The position numbers were made by a program, and so were the translations under genes. A model generated the notes under the pieces. The model had not been told where the DNA came from, searched no databases, and saw only the letters and a list, made by a program, of their open reading frames with translations. A DNA stretch of 64,000 nucleotides from Bacteroidota bacterium. Its GTDB lineage: Bacteria > Bacteroidota > Bacteroidia > M30B66. Shown here piece after piece: positions 1,639 to 16,174 of the stretch. Location of the stretch: the NCBI GenBank assembly GCA_027490225.1, contig JAIXYK010000061.1, positions 1-64,000 on the forward strand. The letters are read 5' to 3'. Numbering within the stretch: the first letter of the stretch is position 1; each line of letters opens with the position of its first letter.

Positions 1639-1992
1639 ATGTATTCGAAAGAACTTTTAAAAGGAACACTTAGCACCATTCTGCTCACCTTGTTAGATGA
1701 GAAGGGGAGAATGTATGGGTATGAAATAACACAGGCGGTGAAAGAGCGCACCGATGGTAAAATATTGCTCAAAGAAGGCTCCTTGTATCCAGCCTTGCAT
1801 AAGTTAGAAGCCGAAGGTTTTCTAAGTACTGAAGAAGAGTTTATTGGTAAAAGACCGCGCATCTATTACCGATTAACAACTACCGGGAAAGCGCAATCTC
1901 GGATTCTTGTGGACGAACTTTTTCAGTTTTACGAAACCCTTCAGCAATTAATTGTCCCTCAACCTGAATTAAATTATGGAGCTGCGGGATGA
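1639..1992 (+). CDS. PadR family transcriptional regulator
   Basis: 117 aa, the usual size for a small PadR (subfamily s1) protein. The winged-helix signature is clear: the MYGYEI segment near residues 25-30, the EGSLYPALHKLE recognition/wing segment near 46-57, and the GKRPRIYYRLT wing near 69-79. These proteins bind DNA as dimers and usually repress a neighbouring membrane-protein gene in response to a ligand or stress. The last 17 bases overlap the next gene (1976-2596), so the two are co-transcribed and probably translationally coupled. The -7 element 4 nt before the ATG suggests a leaderless transcript. The regulator assignment is firm; its target is inferred. Confidence 0.93.
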   Translation: MYSKELLKGTLSTILLTLLDEKGRMYGYEITQAVKERTDGKILLKEGSLYPALHKLEAEGFLSTEEEFIGKRPRIYYRLTTTGKAQSRILVDELFQFYETLQQLIVPQPELNYGAAG

Positions 1993-2596
1993 TCAATTTG
2001 AACAAGTGTCGTTGCTGGTGAACCGGTCAGTTAGCATGCACTCGCTTCGGGTACAATTGCTCGATCATTTGTGTTGTCACATTGAAGCACAAATGGATGC
2101 AGGAATTTCATTCGATTCGGCTTTGAAAGAGGCCATTCTACAGTTATCGCCCGAAGGCTTAACGGCTGTAGAAGAACGAACCATCTTTTTACTCACTTTT
2201 AAAAAACAACTTACTATGAAAAAGCTATTGTATTTCACCGGATTCCTCGCGGCATTATTTACCATGTCTTCTATGACCTTTCGAACCTTTCACTGGCCAT
2301 ACGGAAATGTACTTATGTTTTTTGGTAATGGATTTTTGCTATTATCTATGATTTGTCTACTCGTTATTGCCATTCGAAATTATTCATCGATTTCGAGCAG
2401 CGCACGCATTAGAAGTTTAAGTGGTGCCATTGGTGGAATGATTGTCGCCACAGGCTCGATGTTTAAATTCCTTCACTGGCCAGGTGCAAACATTTTGTTT
2501 CTATTAGGCGCTGTTGTTTTGATTTGCGTGTTCCTTCCTATTCTGTTTTTTCAATTGTATAAGAACGACGTTGCTAAATCTTCAGAACCAGTTTAA
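1976..2596 (+). CDS. PadR-associated membrane protein with duplicated GldL-like motif
   Basis: 206 aa. Residues 1-75 are a soluble helical region with an LRVQLLDHLCCHIE-type segment, of the kind found in PadR-linked and anti-sigma-like membrane proteins. Four hydrophobic helices follow between about residues 80 and 200. Two of them carry the same motif: FRTFHWPYGNVLMFFG (about 102-117) and FKFLHWPGANILFLLG (about 162-177). This resembles the FKxxHWPGA motif of the gliding/T9SS protein GldL, but the C-terminal GldL domain is absent. It overlaps padR by 17 bases and is followed by a strong terminator. It is probably the regulated partner of PadR; its biochemical role is unknown. Confidence 0.8.
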   Translation: MELRDDQFEQVSLLVNRSVSMHSLRVQLLDHLCCHIEAQMDAGISFDSALKEAILQLSPEGLTAVEERTIFLLTFKKQLTMKKLLYFTGFLAALFTMSSMTFRTFHWPYGNVLMFFGNGFLLLSMICLLVIAIRNYSSISSSARIRSLSGAIGGMIVATGSMFKFLHWPGANILFLLGAVVLICVFLPILFFQLYKNDVAKSSEPV

Positions 2597-2662
2597 CATA
2601 GGTTTCTGCTTTCGGAGTTAATGCTTTTTTGTTTTGATTGCATTAAACCGATTGATTTTTAA

Positions 2663-2703
2663 AACGCAAAGTCCATTTGGATTCGAATGGGCTTTGCGTT
2701 TTC
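2663..2703 (+). terminator. Rho-independent terminator after the padR operon
   Basis: A 15-bp stem (2663-2677 with 2686-2700, one G-T pair) carrying the CGCAAAG/CTTTGCG core, with an 8-base loop and a short T run. It lies 67 bases after the stop at 2596. Confidence 0.85.
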
Positions 2704-2727
2704 TGCATTGCAATGTTGTAGTATTTC

Positions 2728-2820
2728 TATTTGATTTAGATAAAATTTAATCTTACCTACCTGCTGCGCAAGCGGGCGAAGCGTATACCTTGTATAGCGT
2801 AGCACGTGGTGCCGCAGTAG
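2728..2820. repeat. Dispersed palindromic repeat family A, copy 1
   Basis: Matches 6860-6961 over the upstream TTGATTTAGATAAAAT part and the core GCGCAAGCGGGCGAAGCGTA ... GTGCCGCAG. The core folds as CTGC-GCAA-GCGG and as an imperfect TATAC/GTATA stem. This copy lacks the right-hand half seen in copies 2 and 3. On the minus strand it lies just beyond the stop of the UPF0175 gene. Confidence 0.8.
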
Positions 2821-2860
2821 TGATGTTACTCTTCAGCTTCTTTAAGAGCTTGTTTTTCTA

Positions 2861-3082
2861 TTATTTAATATCTCTCGGAAGGTCAGATGCAGGATAATTA
2901 AATATGGAAACGTTATATCGTCCAAGCAGTTCTGCAAAGGTTCTTTTAGACAAACCCACTAACTCAGCAGCTTGACCTAAAGAAAGTTTTCCTTGTTCGT
3001 AAAGCTTTGTCGCAAGTAACATTGCTATTTCCTTGTCATCCAAATCAAATGAATCAGGTACATTAAATGTTAAGGTTTTCAT
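2861..3082 (-). CDS. UPF0175 family antitoxin-like protein (orphan)
   Basis: 73 aa, starting at the ATG that gives MKTLTFNVPDSF; a longer reading from 3133 adds an unlikely leader. The protein has the UPF0175 layout: an N-terminal strand, the segment DKEIAMLLATKLYEQGKLSLGQAAELVGLSKR in parts (about residues 18-50) with a helix-turn-helix, and a short C-terminal tail ending DLPRDIK. UPF0175 proteins are antitoxins normally followed by a DUF3368 PIN-type toxin. Here the downstream 260 bases contain only repeat A and no toxin reading frame, so the gene is an orphan or half of a lost module. The 145-aa gene upstream is not a known partner. Confidence 0.8.
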   Translation of the reverse strand: MKTLTFNVPDSFDLDDKEIAMLLATKLYEQGKLSLGQAAELVGLSKRTFAELLGRYNVSIFNYPASDLPRDIK

Positions 3083-3129
3083 GAAGTAAAGATAATGAAA
3101 ATTGGTTAATGGTTGATGCAATTTCAAAG

Positions 3130-3567
3130 TCATGCATTGCTATTTCTAATTGTTGTAAAAAGATTATTTCCTTTCTCGAATTGCTCGCCGATTGCATCCA
3201 TCGTCATATTACTGATTTCATTAACTTTTAATAAAATTTCACTGCTTGTTTCAATATGCCAGGCAAATACTTTGTTATGTTCGATCCACTTTGCTTCCCA
3301 AAATAAGTCGCCATATCGATATAAAATTACAAAATCATCTGATTTCTGTTGGTCAGTATCAAAACTCAACCCTTTTGAGATTAAGTTATTAACATCAAAT
3401 TGGTCGGCATTCATTTGTCCTAAAGAAAAAAGTTCATCGTCTTCTTGGTTAATTTCAGAAGATGGTATGTTATAGTCAATTCTAAATTGCTCTATTCCTC
3501 CTGAATATTTTTCAATTACCGCTTGTTTACGTATAATCAAGTTGTAAATGTGCATGTATGTCGCCAT
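3130..3567 (-). CDS. Hypothetical protein
   Basis: 145 aa from an ATG, acidic, with no signal peptide or membrane helix; family not recognised. It contains an aromatic beta-rich middle (FVILYRYGDLFWEAKWIE, about residues 78-95) and a helical C-terminus. It ends 47 bases before the start of the UPF0175 gene on the same strand, so the two may share a transcript. A possible -7 element (TATATTTG on the minus strand, 3610-3603) lies 35 bases before the ATG. The regular codon pattern and isolated position between repeats support a real cassette-like gene. Confidence 0.65.
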   Translation of the reverse strand: MATYMHIYNLIIRKQAVIEKYSGGIEQFRIDYNIPSSEINQEDDELFSLGQMNADQFDVNNLISKGLSFDTDQQKSDDFVILYRYGDLFWEAKWIEHNKVFAWHIETSSEILLKVNEISNMTMDAIGEQFEKGNNLFTTIRNSNA

Positions 3568-3690
3568 AATGTTAAATTAATGTTTTTTAGCCTGACCAAT
3601 ACCAAATATATGCAAGCAAGTTGAAATTTATTTGCGGTTTGAAAAATATTTATAAAACTACCTCTTAAAGTAAATGATTGTTCTTGGACA

Positions 3691-3856
3691 AGCTAACTCA
3701 TACACGCCCGCTGCGCAAGCGGGCGAAGCGTATACCTTTATAGCGTATCACGCGGTGCCGCAGTTAGGTGAATTTTGTGAAATGAAATGTAAACGCGGCA
3801 TGCGCCCTATTTGTTAAATGCTGCTTGTCCCAAAGAAATTGTTTTTTTCGCTTGCC
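3691..3856. repeat. Dispersed palindromic repeat family A, copy 2 (attC-like ends)
   Basis: Contains the A core (GCGCAAGCGGGCGAAGCGTA ... CGCGGTGCCGCAG) and the right half TTTTGTGAAATGAAATGT ... CGCGGCATGCGCCC shared with copy 3. Outer arms AGCTAACT (3691-3698) and AGTTAGGT (3762-3769) are complementary at 7 of 8 positions; read on the minus strand they resemble integron core boxes RYYYAAC and GTTRRRY. It lies directly after the stop of the Fic toxin gene. Confidence 0.75.
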
Positions 3857-8575: not shown

Positions 8576-10111
8576 CTATTGAATTACGACTTTTTTCGTA
8601 AATGACGTTTTTCCATCATAAATTTTTATGAAATAAACTCCATTTGTTTGCCTGCTTAAATCAATTTCTGATTGCGAATGATTGATTATTGATTGAAAAA
8701 CGCTTTCTCCAATTATATTGAAAACTTCTATTGAAGTTATGTTGCCACCTTTAACCGTAAATTGTCCTTTGCTCGGGTTAGGATAAATGTTAAAAGCAGT
8801 TGAAGAACTACTTTCAATTAATCCAACAGTAGTTATGTTAAAACATTCGGAAGTATCCGTACAACTGTTTTGCGTTACAATAACAGCATAGTTTCCATTG
8901 GCAGATATGGTAAAACTTTGATTGGTTTCTCCTGAAATAGGCACATTTCCATTGCAATTTATCCATTGGTAGGTAGCTTCATTTTGGTTTGCAGTTATAG
9001 TTGCACCATTAACTAAAGCAGTAACAATTGGTATGTTATTTAAAAATACACTTATGTTACTTGAATTTGCATTAGTTGTTACTAAATCCATTTTTCCATC
9101 TCCATTAAAATCAGCGCTTACAATAGAAATAGGGGCTGTTCCAGCCGAAAAATTAGTGGCTGTTGAAAAACTTCCTAAACCATTTCCCATTATTACAGAT
9201 AAATTATTTGAAGTGTAATTTGCCGTTGCTAAATCCATTTTTCCATCTCCATTAAAATCAGCAGTAATAACTGACTCGGGACCTGTGCCTACTGCAAAAT
9301 TTGTGGCATCTGAAAAACTTCCTAATCCGTCGCCTATTAATACTGATACATTATTTGAAGTTTTATCAGCAACAGCCAAATCAATCTTGCTATCTCCATT
9401 GAAATCGGCACTGGTAATTGAATATGCTCCATCGGGTATGCTGAAAGTGTTGAACGCTGAAAAACTTCCAAGTCCATCACCTAATAATACAGATACATTA
9501 CTACCATCAGTTGCTAAATCCATTTTTCCATCTGCATTAAAATCAGCACTAATAATAGTTAGAGGTGATGTTCCTACTTCAAAATTAGTGGCTGCCCCAA
9601 AACTTCCCAATCCGTTTCCTAATAATACTGATACGTTATTTGAAGTGAAATTAGTAACGGCTAAATCCATATTACCGTCTCCATTAAAATCGGTACTGTT
9701 TACCCCACCTGGATTTATACCTACGTTAAAATTAGTGGATGCGGCAAAACTTCCTAATCCATTACCTATTAATATCGAAACGTTATTAGAATTCTGATTA
9801 GTAACTGCTAAATCCAATTTACCATCTCCGTTAAAATCAGCACTTTCAATAGAAGAAGGAGCTGTTCCAACATTAAAACTGTTAGCTGCGGCAAAACTTC
9901 CTAATCCATTGCCAATTAATACTGAAATTGAATTAAATAGACTAAAATTAGCGACAGCTAAATCCATATTACCATCTCCATTAAAATCTGCAGTATCAGC
10001 AACCCAAGGGGCCGAACCTGCATTAAAGTTAGCAGCAGCAGAAAAACATACTTGTGCTTTTGTGTTTGAGTAGCACATTGCAATTATCAAAAGGCATAAA
10101 AATTTCTTCAT
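8576..10111 (-). CDS. FG-GAP/VCBS repeat protein with T9SS type A sorting domain
   Basis: 511 aa. A signal peptide (about 1-19, ending NTKAQ) precedes seven repeats of about 50-57 residues, each with a calcium-binding loop of the form DFNGDGxxDLA (DxNxDGxxD); two loops are altered (DFNADG, DFNGDSK). Residues about 355-425 form an Ig/PKD-like linker with cysteines, and the last ~80 residues are a T9SS type A sorting domain (IYPNPSKGQFTV ... GVYFIKIYDG ... KKVVIQ). The repeats probably build a beta-propeller displayed on the cell surface. The sorting domain would be removed after outer-membrane transport by T9SS. Ligand or adhesion partner is unknown. Confidence 0.92.
   Translation of the reverse strand: MKKFLCLLIIAMCYSNTKAQVCFSAAANFNAGSAPWVADTADFNGDGNMDLAVANFSLFNSISVLIGNGLGSFAAANSFNVGTAPSSIESADFNGDGKLDLAVTNQNSNNVSILIGNGLGSFAASTNFNVGINPGGVNSTDFNGDGNMDLAVTNFTSNNVSVLLGNGLGSFGAATNFEVGTSPLTIISADFNADGKMDLATDGSNVSVLLGDGLGSFSAFNTFSIPDGAYSITSADFNGDSKIDLAVADKTSNNVSVLIGDGLGSFSDATNFAVGTGPESVITADFNGDGKMDLATANYTSNNLSVIMGNGLGSFSTATNFSAGTAPISIVSADFNGDGKMDLVTTNANSSNISVFLNNIPIVTALVNGATITANQNEATYQWINCNGNVPISGETNQSFTISANGNYAVIVTQNSCTDTSECFNITTVGLIESSSSTAFNIYPNPSKGQFTVKGGNITSIEVFNIIGESVFQSIINHSQSEIDLSRQTNGVYFIKIYDGKTSFTKKVVIQ
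9055..10030. repeat. In-gene tandem repeats coding FG-GAP units
   Basis: Units of about 150-170 bases, each including a form of CCATCTCCATTAAAATCAGC (plus strand), repeat seven times. Nucleotide similarity between units is high, so the array can gain or lose units by recombination. Confidence 0.75.
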
Positions 10112-12023: not shown

Positions 12024-13835
12024 TTACGAATTTTTAATGGTAACTGTTTGTGTTTGAGGAAGCGATTGACATGTTAAGATGTACCCATCAGTTATGTCTT
12101 TTTCGGTAAGTGCCTGATTGCTATTCATGAGCACTTTTCCGTTAGTACATTTCATTTTACACATACCGCAAAGGCCACTTTGACAAGAAAAAGGTAATGG
12201 CACATTTTTTTCTAATCCGCTTTGTAAAATGGTTTTGCCTTCTTGGGTTTCAAACTGATACATTTTCCCAAATACATTGGCAGTTACTTGAGCTTTAAGT
12301 GAAATGTTTTTTTGAGTTGGGGTAGTGATTAAAAATAGTTCCCGATGAATTTTATTCTTAGATATTCCGATGTATTCCAAATCATGAATGAGTTTGTTGG
12401 TCATAATTTCGGGCCCACATAGATAAAAATCCAATTTATTCTTCCCATAATTGTTCACCATTTCTTCCAAAGAAATTCTAGTAATATATCCTTTTACAGC
12501 ATTTTGAGGATTTTCTTCTTCACTCAAAAAGTGTTTTACTTCTAATTGAGTAGGATATTCTTTTGTCCATTGTTCGATTTTTTCTTTGAAAATAATGCTG
12601 TTTGAAGTTCTGTTGGCATAAAGCAAGGTGATTTTACTTTTGGGTTCAAACTTCAGAATTGTGCCTATCATACTGTAAATGGGAGTGATTCCACTTCCGC
12701 CCGCAATCAACACATAATGCTTTTTATTGGCAGGTTCTGGATTGAGATAAAATTGCCCGGAAGGTGCTGTTACTTCTAGGGAATTGCCTACGTTCAAATT
12801 TTCTGCTAAGAAATTTGTGACCTTGCCTCCCTTGATTTTTTTGATTGTTAAAGTCAGGGAATTATCTGTATTTGGAATAGAGGAGATAGAAAAAGTGCGG
12901 TATAAAGTTTCGCCTTTGATATTGACTTTTATAGTAATGTGCTGTCCTGCTGAGAAATCCCTGAAAATCGCAGGCACATTTCCAAACTGAATTGTAAAAG
13001 CCTCATTTGCTTCTTGACGAATTTGAGAAACCGTAAGCATATATAAACCTTCGGTTGATTTTTTGATGTGTTTGCGTTCAAAAATTTGTTCGTGTCGGGT
13101 TTCGTAGTCTTTAAATTCTGTTCCCATCCATTTGTCCCACCAGGTAAAATACAAGGCATAATTACCGTTAAATAATTGGTGGTGCATATTATGATGGGTA
13201 GAAGCTACTTTGTATTTTAACAAGGGAAATTTTACCCAGCCTTTTGGATAGATTTCATAGCCCAGATGCGCCATAACATTGTTGAGCATGGAGAAGATTT
13301 GCCATGCAATTATTACCCAAAAATTTAGCGGAAGCAAAAATGGCAACACAAAGCCCATCATTTGTTCAATTACCGCTTCTGAAGGATGAAAAGCAAAGGC
13401 TGTGAATGGAGATGGGTCGGTGCTTTCGTGATGAACCTTATGGAAAAATTTATAAAACCTAGGTAAATGCATGGCTCTGTGGCTCCAATAGAAAAACATA
13501 TCATCAATAAAAAGAACAATAAAAAAACTAAGCACTAACCATAAATAACTGTAATCGTCTAAGTTAAAATAGAGCAGGGTGTAGCCCTTGTTTTCTAAAT
13601 AAAGAAGGCAAACATCGAAAAGGGCAAAAACCAGAAATGTACTTGTAGAAAAACCCAAGTCGTGTTTGAAGTGATGCAGATTAGCTCTTTCGGTTTCTTG
13701 TATTCTTATCTTTTTAAAATACTTTTTACCAACTATCCAAAAGATAATAAAGAATGGAAATACAAATCCTGCATACCAGCTAAATTGTTCGTAAAATGCC
13801 GCGAAGATGTTTTCAAAAAAAGTTGTTATAGTCAT
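12024..13835 (-). CDS. Fused fatty acid hydroxylase / ferredoxin-NADP reductase / [2Fe-2S] ferredoxin
   Basis: 603 aa with three parts. Residues 1-250: a membrane fatty-acid-hydroxylase/sterol-desaturase domain with four to five helices and the di-iron histidine clusters HRAMH (119-123), HKVHH (132-136), His190 and HHNMHH (214-219). Residues ~260-490: a reductase with FAD motif RTFSISS (313-319), NAD(P) motif GGSGITP (379-385) and CGPE (473-476). Residues ~510-600: a plant-type ferredoxin with C551-x4-C556-x2-C559-x29-C589. Electrons from NAD(P)H can thus pass to the di-iron centre within one chain, inserting oxygen into a lipid or sterol-like substrate that is unknown. Two FNR-type boxes lie upstream. 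The start at 13835 is the only plausible ATG. Confidence 0.92.
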   Translation of the reverse strand: MTITTFFENIFAAFYEQFSWYAGFVFPFFIIFWIVGKKYFKKIRIQETERANLHHFKHDLGFSTSTFLVFALFDVCLLYLENKGYTLLYFNLDDYSYLWLVLSFFIVLFIDDMFFYWSHRAMHLPRFYKFFHKVHHESTDPSPFTAFAFHPSEAVIEQMMGFVLPFLLPLNFWVIIAWQIFSMLNNVMAHLGYEIYPKGWVKFPLLKYKVASTHHNMHHQLFNGNYALYFTWWDKWMGTEFKDYETRHEQIFERKHIKKSTEGLYMLTVSQIRQEANEAFTIQFGNVPAIFRDFSAGQHITIKVNIKGETLYRTFSISSIPNTDNSLTLTIKKIKGGKVTNFLAENLNVGNSLEVTAPSGQFYLNPEPANKKHYVLIAGGSGITPIYSMIGTILKFEPKSKITLLYANRTSNSIIFKEKIEQWTKEYPTQLEVKHFLSEEENPQNAVKGYITRISLEEMVNNYGKNKLDFYLCGPEIMTNKLIHDLEYIGISKNKIHRELFLITTPTQKNISLKAQVTANVFGKMYQFETQEGKTILQSGLEKNVPLPFSCQSGLCGMCKMKCTNGKVLMNSNQALTEKDITDGYILTCQSLPQTQTVTIKNS

Positions 13836-13899
13836 AATACATCAATTTTATTGTGCTTATTTTTTGCACGACAAAATTGAGAAGTGTACCAAGGGATTC

Positions 13900-13938
13900 T
13901 TTTGATGTATATCAAAATGTGATTTGATGTATATCAAA
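13900..13938 (-). promoter_or_regulatory. Two FNR/Crp-type operator boxes
   Basis: TTGATGTATATCAA occurs twice, at 13902-13915 and 13924-13937, each flanked by extra T/A. Both match the FNR half-site pattern TTGAT-N4-ATCAA perfectly and have identical centres. Their centres are 22 bases apart, about two helix turns. They lie 65-103 bases before the fused hydroxylase start and just after the regulator gene stop. Confidence 0.85.
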
Positions 13939-14739: not shown

Positions 14740-15516
14740 TTAATTCAGATTTATTACCCAATTGTGAATATAATTTGCAATTTCTTCCCAATTTTTTTGT
14801 CCGCATATATAGTGCGTTCTACCTGTAAATTCCTTAAAATCTTTGATGCTATTTTTATCTTTATATGCATTAAAATTAGTTTTATTTAATGACGAAGGAA
14901 TAATATTGTCTTTTTCTCCAGCAATAAAAAGTAAGGGTTTATGCGGTAATTTAAAATTTATTTTTCCGTAAGCATCTGTGAGCATACTTCGGGGAATATT
15001 TCTGCTTTCGGGTACAACAAATTTGTCATATTCTATTTGGGTTTCGGCCATTGTCATTGTATTGCAAAATGCATATTGATACCATTTTACAGATGGCTCA
15101 AAAGCTGAATTTCCCTTTAACGGATTTATTACAGGCAAATTGGCTTTCCAAAAACTCCATTTGAAAGTCATAACACCAGCAGGTGGAGCTGAATCGATGC
15201 AAATACCAGTAACTCCTTTATCCATTTCAATGAGTTTTTGAGTGATAAAACCACCTACAGAATGCCCAATGATGATTGGCTTTTCAGGTAAATTATCAAT
15301 AAAACTGACATAAGATTTAACCGCATCACTAATGGTTAATTTAGTTAAAGTAGGATGAATATTTTTTCTTAAATCGCTCGGTTTTCCTTCGTGAAAAGGT
15401 AAACTTGGTGCATAGCATTTGTACCCTTTTGCTTCAAAATATTTTATCCAAGGTTCCCAGCTTGTAGGATTCATAAATAGTCCATGAATGAACACGATTG
15501 TTTTTGATATTTTCAT
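14740..15516 (-). CDS. Alpha/beta hydrolase
   Basis: 258 aa with the full catalytic triad layout: oxyanion segment IHGLF (10-14), nucleophile Ser86 in GHSVGG (84-89), Asp203 in GEKDNIIP, and His235 in GRTHYICG. No signal peptide, so cytoplasmic. The AB_hydrolase_1/6 fold covers esterases and lyases acting on small esters or acyl compounds; the substrate cannot be told. The gene follows the second Crp/Fnr regulator (stop 15587) by 70 bases on the same strand, matching the regulator-enzyme arrangement of the neighbouring hydroxylase unit. Confidence 0.9.
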   Translation of the reverse strand: MKISKTIVFIHGLFMNPTSWEPWIKYFEAKGYKCYAPSLPFHEGKPSDLRKNIHPTLTKLTISDAVKSYVSFIDNLPEKPIIIGHSVGGFITQKLIEMDKGVTGICIDSAPPAGVMTFKWSFWKANLPVINPLKGNSAFEPSVKWYQYAFCNTMTMAETQIEYDKFVVPESRNIPRSMLTDAYGKINFKLPHKPLLFIAGEKDNIIPSSLNKTNFNAYKDKNSIKDFKEFTGRTHYICGQKNWEEIANYIHNWVINLN

Positions 15517-15586: not shown

Positions 15587-16174
15587 TTATTTCGAAGCAA
15601 GTCTTTTTCTAATTCTACTCAATGAAGGACCTTGAATGCCTAAATAGGAAGATATATGATACAAAGGGGTATTATTGAAAATATCAGGATAGTTTTTAAT
15701 TAAATCTAAATAGCGTTCTTCGGGCGATTTGAAAACGAATCCTTCCATTCTTTCGATGGTCAGGTTAAATGCTTCTTGCGCCATTAATCGACCAAAGCGT
15801 TCCCACTGGTGCGATTGCTTATACAGCGAAAGTAAATCGTCGATATTTATATAAAGTATAGTTGCATTTGTTAAAGCTTGTGTATGATAATCGCAGGGTG
15901 TTTGATTTATAAAACTTTTAAATGGAACTACAAATTGATTTTGGGTATACAAGAAAATATTCTTTTCCTCAAAGGTTTTACTGTCAATAATATAAGAACG
16001 AAATGCACCGTCAATAATAAAACCTAAATACTTGCAAACGATTTTATGCTGGTTAAAAAAATCTCCTTTTTTATATTCCTTTTTATGCCAAAAAGAAATG
16101 GATAAATTAAAATCTTCTGTTGATAATTCAGCAAAATGATTCAACGCAAAAGCAACTTTTTCTATTTCTGACAT
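15587..16174 (-). CDS. Crp/Fnr family transcriptional regulator (second)
   Basis: 195 aa: cyclic-nucleotide-binding-type domain (about 1-130) and C-terminal helix-turn-helix ending GIQGPSLSRIRKRLASK. The recognition helix has PSLSR rather than ExxSR, so it should not read the same TTGAT box as the regulator at 13947-14522. It sits directly upstream of the alpha/beta hydrolase on the same strand and probably regulates it. The upstream region (16175-16438) is shared with a divergent secreted-protein gene. Confidence 0.88.
   Translation of the reverse strand: MSEIEKVAFALNHFAELSTEDFNLSISFWHKKEYKKGDFFNQHKIVCKYLGFIIDGAFRSYIIDSKTFEEKNIFLYTQNQFVVPFKSFINQTPCDYHTQALTNATILYINIDDLLSLYKQSHQWERFGRLMAQEAFNLTIERMEGFVFKSPEERYLDLIKNYPDIFNNTPLYHISSYLGIQGPSLSRIRKRLASK

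Follow-up and report, generated by a model that had tools for sequence, protein, structure and literature searches.

Why would a gene for a membrane hydroxylase, fused to a reductase and a ferredoxin, stand behind two identical FNR-type boxes and a Crp/Fnr gene, and what do these genes do together? The locus lies in a 64,000-nucleotide stretch of a Bacteroidota genome, referred to as the window throughout. Its features are collected in Table 1.

Table 1. Features of the locus in window coordinates
Feature	Position	Strand	Details	Basis
Predicted 12-strand outer-membrane beta-barrel, 203 aa	11407-12018	-	N-terminal signal-like helix	AF2, fold search, synteny
Hydroxylase-reductase-ferredoxin fusion, 603 aa	12024-13835	-	Membrane di-iron hydroxylase ~aa 1-260; FAD/NAD(P) reductase ~265-500; [2Fe-2S] ferredoxin ~515-603	Pfam profiles, motifs, alignment, fold search
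Predicted transcription start	near 13867	-	Leader ~32 nt	
Predicted Bacteroidota -7 element CAATTTTG	13872-13879	-	Consensus TAHHTTTG	Distance geometry
Proximal FNR-type box TTGATATACATCAA	13902-13915	-	Centre at predicted -41.5, class II position	
Distal FNR-type box TTGATATACATCAA	13924-13937	-	Centre at predicted -63.5	
Crp/Fnr-family regulator crp1, 191 aa	13947-14522	-	cNMP-binding fold, helix QETLSR	PF00027, synteny

The fusion protein and the barrel

An earlier note, made from the letters of the DNA, had read a hydroxylase, a FAD/NAD(P) reductase and a [2Fe-2S] ferredoxin in one chain, and the Pfam domains and motifs confirm it. The FA_hydroxylase profile (PF04116) matches residues 105-239 with 96.3 bits against a cut-off of 31 (E 3e-27), and FAD_binding_6, NAD_binding_1 and Fer2 each score above their Pfam cut-offs (55.4 bits against 21 for Fer2). 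The set of cofactor motifs is complete. It consists of the di-iron His clusters H119xxxH, H132xxHH and H215xxHH, whose ligands are unchanged across 23 aligned sequences; of RTFS, GGSGITP and CGP; and of the plant-type [2Fe-2S] ferredoxin motif C551-x4-C556-x2-C559-x29-C589. For the tail (residues 266-600) the nearest curated family is TIGR02160 (PaaE), with 263.5 bits, below the cut-off of 420.8 bits, and in a fold search the reductase and ferredoxin part resembles phthalate dioxygenase reductase and the tail of the CYP116B self-sufficient P450s. Such a composition suggests that the fusion would work as a self-sufficient membrane oxygenase.

On which substrate would it act? The AF2 model is uninformative here, because the hydroxylase core is poorly modelled (pLDDT below 50 at residues 190-256). 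A substrate guess by fold search with the hydroxylase was dropped for the same reason, the best matches being reductases. The carotenoid hydroxylase CrtG and the ornithine-lipid hydroxylase OlsE were considered, partly because many distant relatives of the hydroxylase belong to Sphingomonadales, and both are given as leads only.

The barrel gene begins 5 bases past the fusion stop, as the earlier note had it, and the outer-membrane type of barrel is supported by an AF2 model with 12 strands and a mean pLDDT of 86.7. Its nearest solved folds, PcoB (TM 0.59), NanC and KdgM, are small outer-membrane channels, and a Pfam search of the barrel gave no match. The barrel was also considered as a PagL lipid A deacylase; this was rejected, as neither a match to PF09411 nor an HxS motif was found.

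The regulator and the promoter of the fusion

The regulator belongs to the Crp/Fnr superfamily by its PF00027 match (36.3 bits, cut-off 27.5) and its recognition helix of the ExxSR type, and its nearest solved structure is 3dn7. It is not matched as FNR proper, since the FNR family NF008365 gives 18 bits against 228. A single Cys (C45) is present, so crp1 has no FNR-type cluster ligands; both the helix and this lack of the Fe-S cysteines had been read correctly beforehand. A natural recognition variant is found in one relative (L005, 4316-4888), where the regulator carries QGTLSR in place of QETLSR and yet the box is intact. The host genome has eight Crp/Fnr genes, crp1 included. The second one in the window (15587-16174, minus strand) is 29% identical to crp1, has the helix GPSLSR, and the next gene after it (14740-15516, minus strand) encodes an alpha/beta hydrolase, which makes another regulator and next-gene pair with another helix.

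Both boxes read TTGATGTATATCAA. The claim that two identical, perfect boxes lie between the fusion and the Crp/Fnr gene is correct, with the refinement that their distance of 22 bp is counted from start to start, or centre to centre, so that 8 bases separate them. The boxes sit past the stop codon of crp1 and 5' of the fusion start, and thus belong to the fusion promoter. Could they be there by chance? They are the only exact TTGATN4ATCAA sites in the window, and at least two such sites were present in 10 of 100 shuffled windows. The number of boxes within 64 kb is therefore not remarkable by itself, but their position is: with 17 sites in the 3.77 Mb genome, about 5e-4 would be expected in the gap of about 110 bp between crp1 and the fusion, and two are observed. 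A stronger argument against chance than this position is the conservation of the box in relatives.

The box also stands at a fixed distance from a likely promoter element. In all 24 promoters compared, the G of TTTG is 36.5 bp from the centre of the proximal box, that is, TTTG begins 26 bp past the box; note that in L018-L020 the letters at this distance are TTCG, and that L003, L004 and L011 contain an earlier TTTG, which our script took, as well as one at the fixed distance, which the alignment shows. For Flavobacterium johnsoniae, PMC6847099 gives a -7 consensus of TAHHTTTG with its G at -5 and leaders averaging 33 nt. Combined with the fixed distance, a G at -5 would centre the proximal box at -41.5 and the distal box at -63.5. 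The fusion promoter is thus predicted to be class II-like, and its distal box to lie two helical turns upstream of the proximal one on the same face of the DNA. The pair with exactly 22-bp spacing occurs in 18 of the 24 promoters and the proximal box alone in the other six. Where both boxes are present, the proximal one often has a weak upstream half (TTGNTCTACRTCAA), and its terminal TCAA is invariant. The only other TTGATNTANATCAA of the genome falls within apparent coding sequence, for which reason crp1 looks dedicated. A genome-wide regulon of these boxes, which was also considered, is unsupported, that site being the single other one with the NTAN core.

Conservation, loss and transfer among relatives

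Do relatives of the fusion keep the same arrangement? The Bacteroidota set comprises the 23 loci L003-L014 and L016-L026, each of which has an orthologous hydroxylase. In 21 of them the gene immediately upstream of the hydroxylase encodes an orthologous regulator, 58-87% identical, and a box is found upstream in 22, perfect in 20. The earlier note had proposed to look for TTGAT boxes before orthologues, and had held that orthologous fusions with neither boxes nor a linked Crp/Fnr gene would speak against its reading. Within the phylum the linkage holds to the extent just given; the exception, L025, has neither regulator nor box and lacks the reductase as well. A full fusion with neither regulator nor box does exist outside the phylum, in Formosimonas limnophila (L015, Betaproteobacteria, 48% identical), the one case of the kind that the note had named as speaking against it. 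In L007 there is a box pair before the fusion and another before a second gene beside its own copy of the regulator. This second place (1648-3752) has two perfect boxes 22 bp apart before a gene of the peptidyl-arginine-deiminase family, the same promoter with a different target. In the host's own family, relatives match the reductase part only, and a survey of 396 genomes from the phylum turned up no orthologous fusion besides the host's own. One of these genomes (G285; L078, 512-2368) has a different fusion beside a TetR-like gene: its hydroxylase and reductase are joined to a tail that looks DUF2147-like by eye, and there is no ferredoxin.

The electron-transfer domains are not present in all members of the set. 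The reductase is missing from L016, where the ferredoxin is retained in frame; L021-L025 also consist of hydroxylase and ferredoxin; and in L017-L020 the hydroxylase is left with mere remnants of the linker or ferredoxin. On the tree, L016 and L017-L020 fall within the full-fusion group, with support of 100/98 for L014 plus the bare forms and of 95/92 for the larger set to which L016, L003 and the window are added. The reductase and/or the ferredoxin were thus lost at least twice. The fusion is dispensable, because some relatives that share the regulator and the box have a hydroxylase-ferredoxin or a bare hydroxylase instead; in types such as L016-L025, partners of the host must then supply the electrons.

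Is the arrangement inherited with the genome, or does it move on its own? Only the regulator, the hydroxylase and the barrel recur across the loci, while the other flanking genes differ between most of them. A barrel homologue follows the hydroxylase in 15 loci, and it is absent from L012 and L021-L025. Pairwise identities of regulator and hydroxylase are correlated with rho 0.89, against 0.35 for hydroxylase and gyrB; these values are descriptive, as the pairs are not independent. For example, the isolates Cognataquiflexum aquatile (L004) and Flavobacterium aurantiibacter (L008) share 86% identity in the hydroxylase and 67% in gyrB. Conversely, L005 and L022 are 98.8% identical in gyrB, yet their hydroxylases share 67% and their regulators 60%, although both are metagenome bins and misbinning is possible. 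Many of the relatives are such bins, in which misplaced contigs could inflate the apparent transfer, a weakness from which the isolate pair is free. Since regulator and hydroxylase co-vary, gyrB is not tracked and the flanks differ, the genes move as a unit, and the comparison points to transfer of this three-gene unit between distantly related bacteria. A search for plasmid carriage gave no plasmid record covering 80% of the query, the top matches listed being PaaE-like reductases.

A more distant set of 44 relatives (31-43% identity) is mostly single-domain. A regulator of the membrane AraC type is present at 27 of these loci, usually encoded by the gene immediately upstream (one member was tested by Pfam). 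DUF2147 is fused to the hydroxylase in L027 and L030, and in L006 and L007 of the nearer set a DUF2147-type gene follows the fusion. A PagL-like gene with HxSN neighbours the hydroxylase in Roseivirga (L058), the sole neighbour that matches PF09411. The hydroxylase family is thus found repeatedly together with an envelope protein and a regulator encoded nearby, an association that favours an envelope lipid as substrate without going beyond association.

The box-promoter layout across the class

Is the distance between box and promoter peculiar to this family? Within the 150 matches listed from a sample of the class, a box-to-TTTG gap of 26 is the commonest of 17 gaps, with 20 cases against a mean of 8.1. 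Over 395 genomes, the gap of 26 is found in 129, that of 23 in 77 and that of 29 in 71, an enrichment with P 3e-5 and 3e-6 respectively when genomes are treated as independent. Of 30 loci with the gap of 26 that were fetched, five (L186, L192, L193, L208 and L209, from other families of the class) have a Crp/Fnr frame that runs in the same orientation and ends at most 8 bp from the box, and the following gene is SRPBCC-like by eye in four of these five. In the host genome itself, contig C46 (8331-8964, L144) has a Crp/Fnr gene, a box at 8921, a gap of 26 and then an SRPBCC-type gene (by eye), and contig C49 (36349-36865, L143) has a Crp/Fnr gene with a TTGAT box at its end; SRPBCC-like or DinB-like genes, again by eye, follow in C46 and C49. 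The chances seem to us about even that Bacteroidota use a portable design of this kind, in which a short Crp/Fnr gene is followed within about 10 bp by a box that occupies position -41.5 in the -7 promoter of the following gene, so that self-contained and transferable switches with one target would result. The cassette would then be the most elaborate example found, with an apparently undescribed one-chain PF04116 oxygenase and a barrel.

A proposed mechanism and its alternatives

The computed domains, motifs, box conservation, promoter geometry and joint inheritance give a scenario that we regard as probable, with considerable room for doubt: a portable three-gene cassette in which a Crp/Fnr protein exerts class II activation on a self-sufficient membrane oxygenase and a barrel, a lipid being the most likely substrate. 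The regulator would respond to a signal that is not read by an Fe-S cluster and, as we infer, would bind both boxes, at -63.5 and -41.5, from one side of the helix. Once bound, it may activate the next two genes in the class II manner through the Bacteroidota -7 promoter. Electrons would pass from NAD(P)H to FAD, to the [2Fe-2S] cluster and to the di-iron centre, and the oxygenase would oxidise, most likely hydroxylate, a hydrophobic substrate embedded in the membrane, most likely a lipid. The barrel may pass the substrate or the product, or present either, at the outer membrane. The earlier note had suggested a regulated lipid-modification unit. Its regulated unit, with a box-linked local Crp/Fnr gene, a fused electron chain and an outer-membrane-type barrel, is well supported, whereas the lipid as substrate is kept here as the most likely candidate.

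Then might the substrate come from outside the cell? By analogy, the genes could form a catabolic or detoxifying cassette for an exogenous hydrocarbon, sterol or terpenoid, the regulator sensing the compound and the barrel serving as uptake channel, just as AlkB works with AlkL. Patchy, transferred and self-regulated accessory genes would suit inducible catabolism, the barrel has the fold of a small porin, and a fused reductase-ferredoxin is known in alkane oxygenases (PMC8918992). However, no downstream catabolic genes accompany the cassette, and some distant relatives are paired with envelope proteins (DUF2147, PagL-like) and not with degradation enzymes, which makes this explanation a possible one that we hold unlikely. 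We give somewhat less credence still to a cassette that is otherwise as proposed but has a repressor as its regulator or a desaturase as its enzyme. The position of a site is no proof of activation by itself, and the PF04116 family also includes sterol desaturases; against a repressor, the textbook arrangement for an activator is a site centred at -41.5 and another two turns upstream of it. It is quite improbable that another Crp/Fnr protein uses the boxes in a wider regulon while the adjacent regulator serves other genes, as the eight Crp/Fnr genes and 17 sites of the genome might allow, because the box accompanies the crp1-type regulator in unrelated hosts, regulator and hydroxylase co-diverge, and the other genomic sites lack the NTAN core except the one within apparent coding sequence.

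If the cassette works as proposed, with class II activation of the oxygenase and barrel genes, it resembles a transferable set of tools with which a fatty molecule can be altered when needed. A self-sufficient oxygenase of the PF04116 lipid/sterol hydroxylase superfamily would be useful, as such enzymes usually need separate electron partners. The cassette also offers a base-precise and testable model of Crp/Fnr activation on the unusual promoter of Bacteroidota, and a case in which regulator, promoter and target appear to spread as a single transferable unit with the electron-transfer domains retained or lost en route.

Comparison with known systems

An earlier account of the fusion or of the promoter layout was not found in the open-access literature searched, and several known systems share parts of them. 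The nearest in composition is ferr_ferrR_AlkB, an alkane monooxygenase fused to ferredoxin and ferredoxin reductase and reported to be active (PMC8918992). As in our fusion, a membrane di-iron oxygenase, a reductase and a ferredoxin are in one chain; in that enzyme AlkB is the oxygenase and its partners are at the N-terminal end, whereas here the partners are C-terminal and a PF04116 oxygenase is at the N-terminus. Fatty acid hydroxylases fused to cytochrome b5 (PMC8918992) likewise join a lipid hydroxylase to an electron carrier, but they use cytochrome b5 in that role, and their reductase is not part of the chain. Among the best fold matches are the CYP116B P450s (PDB 6kbh, 6laa) and phthalate dioxygenase reductase (2pia). 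These have the same reductase with a C-terminal [2Fe-2S] ferredoxin, but it serves a heme P450 or a separate oxygenase, not a membrane di-iron enzyme. PaaE, the reductase of phenylacetyl-CoA epoxidase, is the closest curated family of the tail, which here scores below its cut-off and is fused to a membrane hydroxylase. For the regulation, class II activation by proteobacterial FNR and CRP shares the ExxSR helix, the TTGATN4ATCAA box, the predicted centre at -41.5 and a second site two helical turns upstream. Unlike those systems, the cassette has no Fe-S cysteines in its regulator, a -7 promoter of the TAHHTTTG type and apparently a single, dedicated target next to the regulator gene.
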